Source of the DNA: Pseudomonadota bacterium
Lineage (GTDB): Bacteria; Desulfobacterota; Desulfobulbia; Desulfobulbales; Desulfocapsaceae
Assembly (NCBI GenBank): GCA_018821785.1
Contig: JAHJLI010000274.1
Coordinates: forward strand, 1-41,178
Direction of reading: 5' to 3'
DNA: 41,178 bases
Position numbers and translations under genes: made by a program. Below are positions 7,769 to 11,573 of this stretch, one piece after another. The notes below the pieces were generated by a model. It worked only from the letters and a program-made list of their open reading frames with translations. It made no database searches and was not told the origin of the DNA. Numbering within the stretch: the stretch's first letter is position 1; every line of letters begins with the position of its first letter.

Positions 7769-8125
7769 ATGTATACCATAACAAAAGAATTCACTTTTTC
7801 CGCTTCGCATCAGCTCTTTGGAATGCCAGAGGGGCATCCCTGCGCCCGGCTGCACGGCCACAATTACACGGTTCTGGTGGAGTTGCAGGCAATGGAACTC
7901 AATCCCGTTGGCTTTGTCCGCGATTACCGGGAATTGTCAGAGTTCAAAGCCTATCTTGAAAATGAAGTTGACCACCGCCATCTGAACGACCTTTTCGGAG
8001 ATGCCTTTGTGACCGCCGAGCGCCTGGCGCTACGCTTTTTCACCTGGTGCAAGGCTCGCTGGCCGGAAGTTTCGGCGGTGCGGGTCAGTGAGACGCCGAA
8101 AACCTGGGCGGAATACAGGCCATGA
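7769..8125 (+). CDS. queD: 6-carboxy-5,6,7,8-tetrahydropterin synthase QueD
   Basis: It converts 7,8-dihydroneopterin triphosphate to 6-carboxytetrahydropterin, the first committed step after GTP cyclohydrolase I. The zinc histidines are in SASHQL (near residue 14) and LHGHNY (near 29-34). The catalytic Cys precedes the latter in HPCARLHGH, and the DHRHLN and [10 protein letters not shown] motifs are also present. At 118 residues it has normal QueD length. The ATG immediately follows the queC TAA, and its end overlaps queE by four bases, so translation is coupled. Confidence 0.96.
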
Positions 8126-8835
8126 GTCATTCCGCCTCCATCAAGATCTGTGAAATTTTCGGCCCCACCATCCAGGGCGAAGGTTCACTGATTGGCCAGC
8201 CGACGGTATTTGTACGTACCGGTGGTTGCGATTATCACTGTCGCTGGTGCGATACCCCGTATGCGGTGGATAGCCGTTTTCGTGACACCTGGACGGATAT
8301 GTCGGCCGAAAAGATTCTGGAGCAGGTCGAGCGCCTCAGCGGTGGCCAGCCGATGATGATTTCCCTTTCCGGTGGTAACCCGGCTCTCCAGCCCTTAGAG
8401 GGCTTGATTCCCCTCGGCAGGGACGCGGGATATCGTTTTGCCATGGAAACCCAGGGGAGTATCGTAAAACCTTGGTTTTCATGCCTTGAGGTCTTGACGC
8501 TCAGCCCAAAACCACCGTCAAGCGGTATGAAAACCGACTGGAAGAAACTGCAGGAATGTGTTGATGCTGCAGGGGCGGCGGCAGTGTCCCTGAAACTGGT
8601 GGTTCTGGATGAAGCCGACTACCAGTTTGCCCGCCAGGCAGCGGCACGGTTTCCGCAATTGCCGATATTTCTTCAGCCCTGCAACATGAGCGCGGATGTA
8701 AATGTTGACGGCAGCCAGGCAAGTCTTGAACAATTGAGGTGGCTGGTGGCAAGGGTTCTAGCCGACGGCTGGTATGCAGCACGGGTGCTGCCGCAACTCC
8801 ATGTACTTCTCTGGAGCAATAAGCGCGGGCGATAA
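8122..8835 (+). CDS. queE: 7-carboxy-7-deazaguanine synthase QueE (radical SAM)
   Basis: A radical S-adenosylmethionine enzyme that contracts the pterin ring of 6-carboxytetrahydropterin to 7-carboxy-7-deazaguanine. The N-terminal [20 protein letters not shown] is typical of QueE. The cluster-binding CxxxCxxC is CDYHCRWC near residues 33-40, followed by DTPYAVD. The glycine-rich [10 protein letters not shown] near residue 75 is the SAM-binding GGEP-like motif, here GGNP. The protein has 237 residues. The start overlaps the queD stop (ATGA). Confidence 0.96.
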
Positions 8836-8857
8836 AGAAAATGGAAGGAGAAAAAAT

Positions 8858-9325
8858 ATGACGCAGGAAACAATCTACAGCAACCTTACTCAGCTTGGCG
8901 GAAAAGCGACCTTGCCGGATAATCCTGAAGAGGCGGTTCTGGAAAAGGTGCCAAACCCGCAGCAGGGGATTGCCTATCTGGTCCGTTTTACCGCCCCGGA
9001 ATTTACCGCACTTTGCCCAATCACCGGGCAACCCGACTTCGCCCATCTGGTCATCGATTATCTGCCGAGTGACTGGCTGGTGGAGAGTAAATCTCTGAAA
9101 CTTTTTCTCGGTTCTTTCCGCAATCATGGGTCGTTTCATGAAGACTGTACAATCAAAGTTGCTCGCCGCCTGGTCGACTGCATCGCGCCGCAATGGCTGA
9201 GAATTGGCGGTTACTGGTATCCGCGCGGCGGCATGCCCATCGATGTGTTCTACCAGACCGGCGAACCTCCCAGAGGCCTGTGGGTGCCTGAGCAAGGCGT
9301 ATCGCCATACCGTGGCCGCGGCTAG
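8858..9325 (+). CDS. queF: NADPH-dependent preQ0 reductase QueF (YkvM type)
   Basis: It reduces preQ0 nitrile to the preQ1 aminomethyl group using NADPH. Hallmarks of the single-domain YkvM subfamily are [16 protein letters not shown] with the catalytic Cys near residue 52, the QueF motif [17 protein letters not shown], and HEDCT. The ATG at 8858 has a well-spaced AAGGAG. The open frame continues upstream into the end of queE, but that extension has no family similarity. The protein has 155 residues. Since preQ1 is its product, it is the natural target of feedback by the riboswitch at the operon head. Confidence 0.96.
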
Positions 9326-9340
9326 CACGAGGAGAATGAA

Positions 9341-9703
9341 ATGGCTACCATGAAACCGATGAAAACCACCGTCTACTCCACCGACCATGGGCGGATCTGT
9401 CCCGAATGCGACAAACCGGTTGCCTCCTGCATCTGCCGGCAAAAGAAGGTCGTCGTCCCGGCAAAGAGCGGCGTCAGAGTAGGTAGAGAAACCAAAGGTC
9501 GGAAGGGCAAGGGGGTGACCGTAATCAGTGGACTACCCCTTGACGCCGCTGCCTTAGAGGCTCTGGCCAAGGAACTGAAAAAACGCTGCGGCTCCGGGGG
9601 CACGGTTAAAGAAGGGGTTATCGAGATCCAAGGCGACCATCGCGATGTGCTCCTTGAAGATCTCGTCAAACGCGGCTGGCCAGCCAAAAAGAGTGGAGGG
9701 TGA
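9341..9703 (+). CDS. SUI1/eIF1-like translation factor (YciH family)
   Basis: A 120-residue protein with the SUI1 fold in its C-terminal two-thirds: KGVTVISGLPLD, then KKRCGSGGTVKEGVIEIQGDH with the conserved CGSGGTVK near residues 85-92. The N-terminus carries a zinc-knuckle-like CPEC...CIC (residues about 19-32) found in many bacterial members. The family is related to eukaryotic eIF1; the E. coli homologue is YciH, and its bacterial role is poorly defined. It has a GGAG Shine-Dalgarno. It lies 15 bases after queF and is probably co-transcribed with the que operon. Confidence 0.92.
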   Translation: MATMKPMKTTVYSTDHGRICPECDKPVASCICRQKKVVVPAKSGVRVGRETKGRKGKGVTVISGLPLDAAALEALAKELKKRCGSGGTVKEGVIEIQGDHRDVLLEDLVKRGWPAKKSGG

Positions 9704-10025: not shown

Positions 10026-11573
10026 TCATGGTTCATGCCAGAGATCTATAGATAATGTACTGCAGTCATCGTTAGTGGAAAAGTTACCCCATTCCATACG
10101 ATACCTGTGAGGATCATCAAGAGCATCACCGGCGGCACTCCAGGCATTATAAAGATCTTCGGCAATCTGATCAGGTGTCCCACCGAGCCATGTATTATAG
10201 AAAAATGTTTCGGCTTCGGACACATTCAGTCCCGCGGGGACAGGCATGTGAGCGCAGAGCATGAATTGCATATGATTATCCCAGGCAACTAAAATATCGT
10301 TGAAAACCTGCAAGTGATCTGCGGCATGCTGGCGTTCATGATCTCGTGTTTCCGTTTTAAATCGAGAGTTGGATGGAAGGCCGTTTACCGTAAACTGTGT
10401 ATAGCCGGGAGTCATGAGACAGGGTCCAAGTGCAGAACGATTTCGTTCATTTTCATCACAATTTACAAGGCAGTCGGGTATTAAAAGGCGGCCTGTTATA
10501 CGTGCTCTCGGTGCGCGGATTGTCCACGGGGCATCGGTCGGCAGCCACATGTTGAAACTACCAATATTGGTTGGAAGCCGACGGATCCAAATCTCCATGC
10601 CGCCTTCTTCCAGGACACGCCTACCGAATTCGGGCGGTTCGATCGCCATTACCGCGGCAATCGTATCCAGGATAGGGACGCCATTTAATGTTGGGGGTGT
10701 CCATGCGAATGGCTGGTAATTGACAAACGCTTCTGCCGGATTCCTCTCGTGTATAATACCACTCACAAATGAAGCAGTTCTTTGGATGCTTATTCGAGTG
10801 GAAGTACTGGTGCCACCTTGCTGCACCACATGAGTCAACTCGTGAGCCAGAAGTTTTTTGCCCGATGGTGTGCCGGGTCTGTATTTCCCTGCCCTAAAAT
10901 AAATGTCTCTTCCAGCGGTAAATGCCTCGGCGTTTATCGCTCTGCTCATCCGGGCAGCATAATCATCTGTATGTACCCGTACCCTTCTGAAATCAGTTCC
11001 GAACCTTCTTTCCATGAAACTTCGGTCGGCTTCAGGCAATGGCTGACCAGCACCATCGCTCTGGAGCAATTGGTTCTGTAACTCATTGCTGACCTGAAGG
11101 GTTCGGCTTGAAAAGCCCTTTGCCATAAAAGGCTGTTCTTCCTCTTCAACAACCTTTTGTTGAATCAATGGTGTGATCTGAGCAACAAGCGGCTTGGTTT
11201 GTATCAGTTCATTTTGTATCTTTGCGTCCCCGCACGAGGGACCAATACCTGCCCCTCAAGTAGGTGCGCGTTGAATCTCAGGTTCCGGCCCATGCATAAC
11301 CCGTTCGGCGACACGATTGGCCTCCTGCTCATAGATGTCATCAGGCCGGCCCATTGTAATTTTGCTATGGGTTGCCTTGCTTTGCATCATTCTCAGCACT
11401 GCCTGGTTGCCGATGGTTCGTTGGAGGAAGAGGATGCGGTCAACAGGTGAATTCATGGGTTGCGAGGGCCCAGGTTTTCGTACGCGAGGAACGTCTCTTG
11501 ATTGGGTTGTCTCGGGAATTTTTGTCGTCAGCATCATACGTTCTCTTATGGACCAGTTTTCATCGGATGACAC
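10026..11573 (-). CDS. eCIS-core (DUF4157) protein with one in-frame TGA: candidate selenoprotein or nonsense allele
   Basis: Read from a GTG at 11573 (an ATG at 11537 is an alternative start), the frame runs 515 codons to 10026 with a single TGA at 11258-11256 (codon 106). Before the TGA is the usual DUF4157-protein front, LQRTIGNQAVLRMMQS and GRPDDIYEQEANRVAERVM. After it come the TKPLVAQITPLIQ linker and the DUF4157 domain (about residues 178-252) with FGTDFRRVRVHTD and KKLLAHELTHVVQQ (HExxH at 244-248). The unrelated C-terminal domain has a second HExxH, HERQHAADH, at 412-420. No frameshift or other stop occurs. A SECIS-like hairpin begins 14 bases after the TGA. Relatives, from recall, carry Cys-rich segments at this point. 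DUF4157 proteins are often cargo of, or linked to, extracellular contractile injection systems, but no such structural genes are nearby. Confidence 0.75.
11226..11242 (-). promoter_or_regulatory. bacterial SECIS-like hairpin downstream of the in-frame TGA
   Basis: On the minus-strand mRNA, 13 bases separate the TGA (11258-11256) from a 6-bp stem: GTCCCT (11242-11237) pairs with GGGGAC (11231-11226), five Watson-Crick pairs plus a U-G. The loop is CGTGC (11236-11232). The loop starts 19 bases after the UGA and has G at its second position followed by U. From recall of the published bacterial SECIS model (loop 16-37 bases from the UGA, G in the first two loop bases, stem of at least four pairs) it fits. 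A short GC-rich hairpin can occur by chance. Confidence 0.45.

Follow-up and report, generated by a model that had tools for sequence, protein, structure and literature searches.

The minus-strand frame at positions 10026–11573 of the window (by which we mean the whole stretch of 41,178 nucleotides that was analyzed) is interrupted by a TGA codon, and the question is whether this TGA ends the protein or is read as an amino acid. The initial annotation had described one TGA at codon 106 of an otherwise intact 515-codon frame and had proposed a selenocysteine (Sec) residue at this position. Direct reading bore out the frame and its coordinates: 105 codons are followed by the TGA (11258–11256, minus strand) and then by 409 codons and a TGA stop (11255–10026) with no further internal stop. 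Judging from the sequence comparisons described below, we regard it as very probable that the in-frame TGA is a Sec codon (U106 by the earlier count). Translation more likely starts at ATG 11537 or ATG 11534, GTG 11573 being the outermost possible start.

The front coding part (11259–11537, on the minus strand like all features of the gene) comprises an N-terminal segment with a conserved DIYEQEANRVAERVM helix and extends up to the putative Sec codon; homologues align across it. The part after the TGA contains an eCIS_core domain (DUF4157, PF13699; 10809–11042) with the HExxH sequence HELTH (10830–10844), a zinc-metallopeptidase-like motif of the core that is given for DUF4157 in the consulted portion of PMC8213781. 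Pfam recognizes this domain on the rear piece with 112.9 bits (cut-off 22, E 7.9e-33). No other family was found on the rear piece by Pfam, and the C-terminal region (10029–10808) is possibly a cargo part. The front piece alone gave no Pfam match, and NCBIfam returned 0 families for three pieces. The earlier claim that both sides of the TGA match one protein family thus stands insofar as homologues align over both sides, the Pfam match being confined to the rear piece. A TGC codon (11234–11232) encodes, as had been annotated, a Cys eight residues after the TGA, the candidate partner of the Sec residue (U-x7-C).

A TGA at the equivalent site was found in 12 DUF4157 genes from 9 genomes, the window included, with hosts in the window's order, the Desulfobacterales, the Nitrospirota and the Planctomycetota. 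When 257 genomes of the window's class were searched with the module and stops were read through, 31 had matches, and in two of these, the window's genome and G126, the tether contained a TGA. G126 belongs to the same order as the window and has two TGA copies (RRKPS-U-PFADDSR-CGDEE). The second G126 copy (L050, G126:C1) has a frame change inside the core, 114 codons after the TGA, so that the core is matched only over profile positions 1–56 and the remainder lies in another frame; this copy is either a duplicate undergoing decay or the result of faulty assembly.

A DNA-pattern scan of genome contigs (84,980 species by description) returned 11 stretches, eight of which were not DUF4157 genes with an in-frame TGA. 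The other three were: a Desulfobacterales MAG with ART-U-KAAAC (L084), a MAG titled Nitrospira japonica with KPT-U-PFAKGLS-CGDEE (L086) and a Phycisphaerae MAG with KPT-U-PLAKGLP-CGD (L089). Such a scan misses part of the family, since the spacing to the TGA is constant in the DNA pattern. Searches of 295 genomes of the phylum of L086 (38 with a match) and of 392 genomes of the phylum of L089 (31 with a match) together added G818 (two copies), G981, G1180 (two copies) and G1085. No new TGA copy came from 75 further genomes of the class of G1180 (17 matching at 1e-15) or from 395 genomes of the phylum to which the window belongs (also 17 matching). Among viral sequences a pattern scan at 36-base spacing gave 11 stretches, none of them a DUF4157 tether, and a protein-based scan of genome contigs confirmed no relative in 36 stretches. 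Relatives were present in 59 plasmid records, and none covered 80% of the query among the matches listed (40 of 59). A sister copy of the window gene was not found in 14 other genomes of the genus, where only G005 and G007 matched, neither being orthologous.

The tether pattern K-P-[TSGI]-U-P-[FLH]-[AST]-x4-C-[GR] fits 10 of the 12 copies, the exceptions being G636 and the window, whose protein has GAGIGPS where the ten have P-[FLH]-[AST]-x4. The U-x7-C spacing is found in 11 of the 12, the Cys spacing being different in G636. The frame stays open after the TGA for 114, 325, 341, 409, 454, 456, 495, 580, 597, 603, 629 and 899 codons, and Pfam finds eCIS_core in all 12 rear pieces, in the second G126 copy as a partial match. 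A tree of 68 cores, for which few columns were available, requires 7 changes to account for 10 TGA rows (mean of the shuffled sets 9.5, 6 of 500 as low), and the starred branches force at least 2 changes; this tree is too weak to place origins.

The initial annotation had also drawn a stem–loop at 11242–11226, beginning at +14 after the TGA, with 19 bases separating the TGA from the loop and a G at loop position 2, and this description proved correct (GUCCCU-CGUGC-GGGGAC, loop 11236–11232). In the alignment, which is ungapped from the TGA onwards, all 12 copies have a stem–loop at +14 to +30. Six pairs (+14/+30 to +19/+25) enclose a 5-base loop; 67 of the 72 cells are standard pairs, and the inner five pairs are standard throughout (60/60). 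Changes on both sides occur in five of the six pairs and none of 500 shuffles reached the covariation score, a kind of score that is inflated by shared ancestry, G126a and G126b being near-copies. When the partner was slid by 1–3 columns as a control, pairing amounted to 48.6–62.5% and there were no double changes. Eleven copies have the loop NGUGY; in G636 the loop is AGGUC, and the hairpin is in register there despite a different protein sequence and Cys spacing. With G636 left out, 62 of 66 cells are paired in the eleven rows and RNAalifold recovers the same stem unprompted. Five pairs were formed at 27 of 5028 other in-frame positions from −100 to +320 codons around the 12 TGA sites; five pairs together with a G at loop position 2 occurred at 6 of these 5028 positions as compared with 12 of 12 TGA sites. 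The model R1 scores the window site with 36.3 bits, the window row being one of its training rows. Rfam at gathering threshold gave 0 matches in the window; an Rfam match near the TGA was a chance miRNA hit (E 2.6) and was rejected.

In the consulted portion of PMC13188914 the bSECIS model is given as a loop of 3–9 and a stem of 4–16 with a G in the first two loop positions, at 16–37 nt from the UGA, and with a minimum free energy of at most −7.5 kcal/mol. All 12 copies lie within this geometry, with loops of 5 bases (3 in the G126 fold), stems of 5–7 pairs, a G at loop position 1 or 2 and a distance of 19–20 nt. The aligned hairpin is short (5–6 pairs); in isolation it has −7.7 kcal/mol in the window and −3.4 to −7.8 kcal/mol over the 12 copies, so that most of them miss the published energy bound. 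Fold energies of the 42 nt after the TGA range from −6.1 to −15.9 kcal/mol. The hairpin is part of the minimum-energy fold of these 42 bases in 8 of the 12 copies (not in the window, G637, G981 and G1085) and in 7 of the 12 when the TGA is included (54 bases); after removal of the first 10 bases it is part of the fold in 11 of the 12, the window included and G1180a being the exception. For the window RNA with the TGA the minimum-energy fold is a competing hairpin of −17.6 kcal/mol that uses the bases directly after the TGA, and the hairpin described above is missing from the untrimmed fold because these first bases pair with its 5′ arm. We infer that a ribosome at the UGA would cover the bases that the competing hairpin uses.

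As the initial annotation had suggested, we inspected the homologues for Cys or TGA at codon 106 and found TGA in the 11 further copies from 8 other genomes and Cys in G1054, a genome of the class of G1180. The G1054 protein reads KPI-C-PFSNGSS-CGEEE, with a Cys (TGC) exactly at the Sec site. It has 318 residues (L199:1405-2358) and contains no eCIS_core by Pfam; the likeness is therefore restricted to the front and the tether, and the tether may be able to travel apart from the HExxH domain. Three paralogues carry other codons: TGG (Trp) in G1085, where the partner Cys is retained, AGA together with TAC (Arg...Tyr in place of U and C) in a third copy of G1180, and GGA together with GGT (Gly...Gly) in G636. 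TGC, TGG, AGA and GGA are each one base from TGA. Six or five of the six stem pairs are present in the TGA copies, 4 in the TGC copy, 3 each in the TGG and AGA copies and 6 in the GGA copy. Stem damage is thus seen in three of the four sense-codon copies, and the GGA paralogue of G636 retains the stem in full, which means that stem and TGA are not strictly tied. Homologues with neither Cys nor Sec had been named beforehand as evidence against a Sec residue. Copies with TGA or Cys do exist, yet in an alignment of 39 rows Cys stands in the TGA column in 5 of the 30 non-TGA rows and is absent from 25, so that the U/Cys pair is not essential to the family. Distant relatives have Cys clusters at the tether site, for example QRKCACAEGTPCPEC.

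The sequence behind the TGA was said to show no decay, which agrees with the 409 open codons and with the substitution rates. Between G126a and G126b the 99 codons after the TGA gave dN 0.047 and dS 0.268 (dN/dS about 0.17). For the window and G1180a (152 aligned codons) we obtained dN 0.41, dS 2.0 and dN/dS about 0.20, a rough value since dS is about 2; in the other five pairs dS was saturated and gave no value. With these low ratios the part after the TGA looks translated and under constraint.

The genome of the window (5.47 Mb in 315 contigs, 94% complete) was checked for the Sec machinery, as had been recommended, and contains SelA (E 2.4e-162), SelB (356 bits, cut-off 242) and a tRNA-Sec (69.9 bits) to which ARAGORN assigns the anticodon TCA. 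All nine TGA genomes have a tRNA-Sec (Rfam over cut-off, called as tRNA-SeC by ARAGORN in each) and eight of the nine have SelB over cut-off; in G1085 no SelB was found at E 1e-70, though a tRNA-Sec is present. In the Nitrospirota sample SelB occurs in both TGA genomes versus 3 of 36 DUF4157 genomes without TGA (P 0.014). SelB is also present in 21 of 27 DUF4157 genomes without TGA in the Planctomycetota sample and, in the window's class, in 12 of 13 such genomes plus G111 (14 searched of 29 matching). The contrast is therefore informative in the Nitrospirota and uninformative in the other two groups. Three tRNA genes above the tRNA-Sec cut-off have the Cys anticodon GCA according to ARAGORN (L007, G000:C289:12247-12337; L176, G637:C15:23008-23099; L177, G818:C91:10675-10768). 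The one in G637 adjoins a SelB gene (C15:21101-22957), of which this genome has two. Variants of tRNA-Cys that are linked to SelB are known.

Taken in isolation a lone TGA in an intact frame looks just like a recent nonsense mutation or a sequencing error in an ordinary DUF4157 gene, and the assembly is a draft of 315 contigs. The same TGA recurs in 11 more genes, spread over 8 other genomes, no TAA or TAG stands at the site among the tethers read, and a covarying hairpin and constraint follow the TGA. Because of this recurrence the mutation or error fails as a general account, and we consider it exceedingly improbable. Other stops were few among the matches listed for the phylum of L086 (in G783 a TAG that lies upstream of the site, and a TGA and a TAA in the core of one G779 match). 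Alternatively the TGA and the hairpin could constitute a regulatory stop which yields a short N-terminal product, and the core would then come from translation at an internal start or from readthrough that happens now and then. The frames after the TGA are long and contain internal starts such as TTG 11168, and Sec recoding is generally partial (30–40% in vivo according to the consulted part of PMC4513850). However, the copies with Cys, Trp, Arg or Gly run through the site without a stop, a tRNA-Sec is encoded in all nine genomes, and all but one of the four sense-codon copies have a damaged stem; a regulated termination therefore appears very unlikely to us. An equally slim chance is left for a UGA that is read as another residue, for instance as Trp by a suppressor tRNA. 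The TGG paralogue would fit this idea, being found in G1085, the sole TGA genome without a SelB match. Against it, this very copy has lost half of the stem (3/6 pairs), the remaining codons at the site are TGC, AGA and GGA, UGA is the ordinary terminal stop of two of the 12 genes (window and G1180a), and the tRNA-Sec is again common to all nine genomes.

Recoding of the UGA, a conserved cis element and a partner Cys are thus supported by the sequence comparisons, and we infer that the residue inserted is Sec. The proposal of a Sec in the linker before the eCIS_core domain finds support in the TGA-bearing homologues, the Sec machinery, the covarying hairpin and the constraint after the TGA. SelB and Sec-tRNA(Sec) would read the UGA at 11258–11256 as Sec, directed by the hairpin 14–30 bases downstream, and the product would be a protein of about 500 residues. 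The Sec would lie in a flexible tether between the N-terminal helix and the HExxH eCIS_core of a protein associated with contractile injection, paired with the Cys eight residues on. A structural model of the module predicted from one sequence had a pLDDT of 39.8, which rose to 75.9 with 39 rows; in the 39-row model the core reaches about 95 and the tether about 50–70. This suggests a flexible tether region, and the model says no more than that. Foldseek found no solved structure similar to the modelled module (best E 2.8), and in a sequence comparison of the module the sole shared stretch was with the protease BepA (E 5e-4).

The simplest chemistry for a Sec/Cys pair is a reversible Se–S bridge, and such a bridge could serve as a redox clasp that governs folding, loading or release of the cargo. 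We give this role somewhat less than an even chance. U and Cys have been lost together in two paralogues, so that the pair would act together; the TGG paralogue is the exception, having kept the Cys beside a Trp in place of Sec, unlike what a strict redox pair predicts. If Sec is indeed inserted, it could instead be a metal ligand or act as the nucleophile through which the protein is covalently linked with the injection particle, and we see this as a minor though appreciable possibility. At the place of the Sec some homologues have two to four clustered Cys. By our own reading, CACAEGTPCPEC and similar clusters in some homologues resemble metal knuckles. The TGA copies, however, offer U and a single neighbouring Cys in the tether, which is little for a typical knuckle, and metal was seen in no structure. 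Possibly a contractile injection system makes use of selenium in the form of a Sec/Cys redox switch in the tether, which would be reduced in the producer and closed outside (or reopened in the target) and would hold or free the cargo. In this wider scenario, which we consider less likely than not, the Sec tether would have been passed as a unit from one unrelated cargo gene to another, also between phyla, and would repeatedly have been lost by one-base changes.

DUF4157 (eCIS_core) is a module of many eCIS-associated toxins and the typical mark of eCIS cargo; the consulted parts of PMC8213781 and PMC11297309 describe what it does as unstudied or elusive. With the DUF4157 proteins the window protein shares a core above the Pfam cut-off with HExxH, an N-terminal helix segment, a tether and a variable C-terminal part. 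It differs from those of the two papers by the putative tether Sec, the U-x7-C spacing and the hairpin that follows; selenium goes unmentioned in their consulted parts. With the bSECIS selenoproteins, formate dehydrogenase among them, it shares the UGA, SelB and tRNA-Sec, a small-loop hairpin with a G at loop position 1 or 2, the distance of 19 bases from the UGA and the existence of a Cys homologue, and unlike them it would carry the Sec in a flexible tether. A 2026 review lists 119 prokaryotic selenoprotein families or subfamilies (Table 1 of PMC13188914). In the consulted part of this review the table contains neither an entry for DUF4157, PF13699 or eCIS nor a U-x7-C motif, and the text does not contain the words 'contractile injection'. 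The selenobacteriocin (TIGR04081) is, by its name, likewise a selenoprotein in an antagonistic product; it is a separate family with two Sec and an SGUG motif. A full-text literature search, with preprints and most subscription papers outside its scope, found nothing that links DUF4157, contractile injection systems or the PVC-metallopeptidase to selenocysteine or selenoproteins in the way proposed here, the paper that came up for injection systems together with selenocysteine being about methanotrophic archaea; a family annotated in GenBank and left unpublished could have escaped it. If the assignment is true, this would be a selenoprotein family outside the 119 of the review's Table 1 and, as far as our searches show, the first selenoprotein tied to a contractile injection system, and the Sec/Cys pair would offer a concrete chemical handle on the role of DUF4157. 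As their first stop would be the Sec codon, TGA-bearing DUF4157 genes are likely to appear in annotations as truncated or split genes.

The window's DUF4157 gene does not lie in or beside an eCIS operon: among the 30 other proteins of the window that were scanned there is no injection-system gene, which sets this copy apart from operon-linked DUF4157 genes. Like DUF4157 systems in general, the genome does possess an eCIS operon, on another contig (C76), with sheath, tube, Pvc16_N, an AAA ATPase and two DUF4157 genes without TGA; being away from it, the window copy would be a detached cargo gene. On one side it is flanked by QueD-like (PTPS), radical SAM, QueF-like and SUI1-domain genes (7769–9700, plus strand) and on the other by sensor, substrate-binding and metabolic genes, and the DUF4157 gene stands alone among them. 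In G1085 the eCIS genes end some 10 kb before the TGA gene, and in G637 the TGA gene is one ORF away from tail, baseplate J, gp25, spike and tube genes. The C-terminal parts vary. Among ten rear pieces eight, the window's included, showed no Pfam family beyond the core; the other two have OmpA, in one of them under the cut-off, and one of these two also contains an M35-like peptidase.
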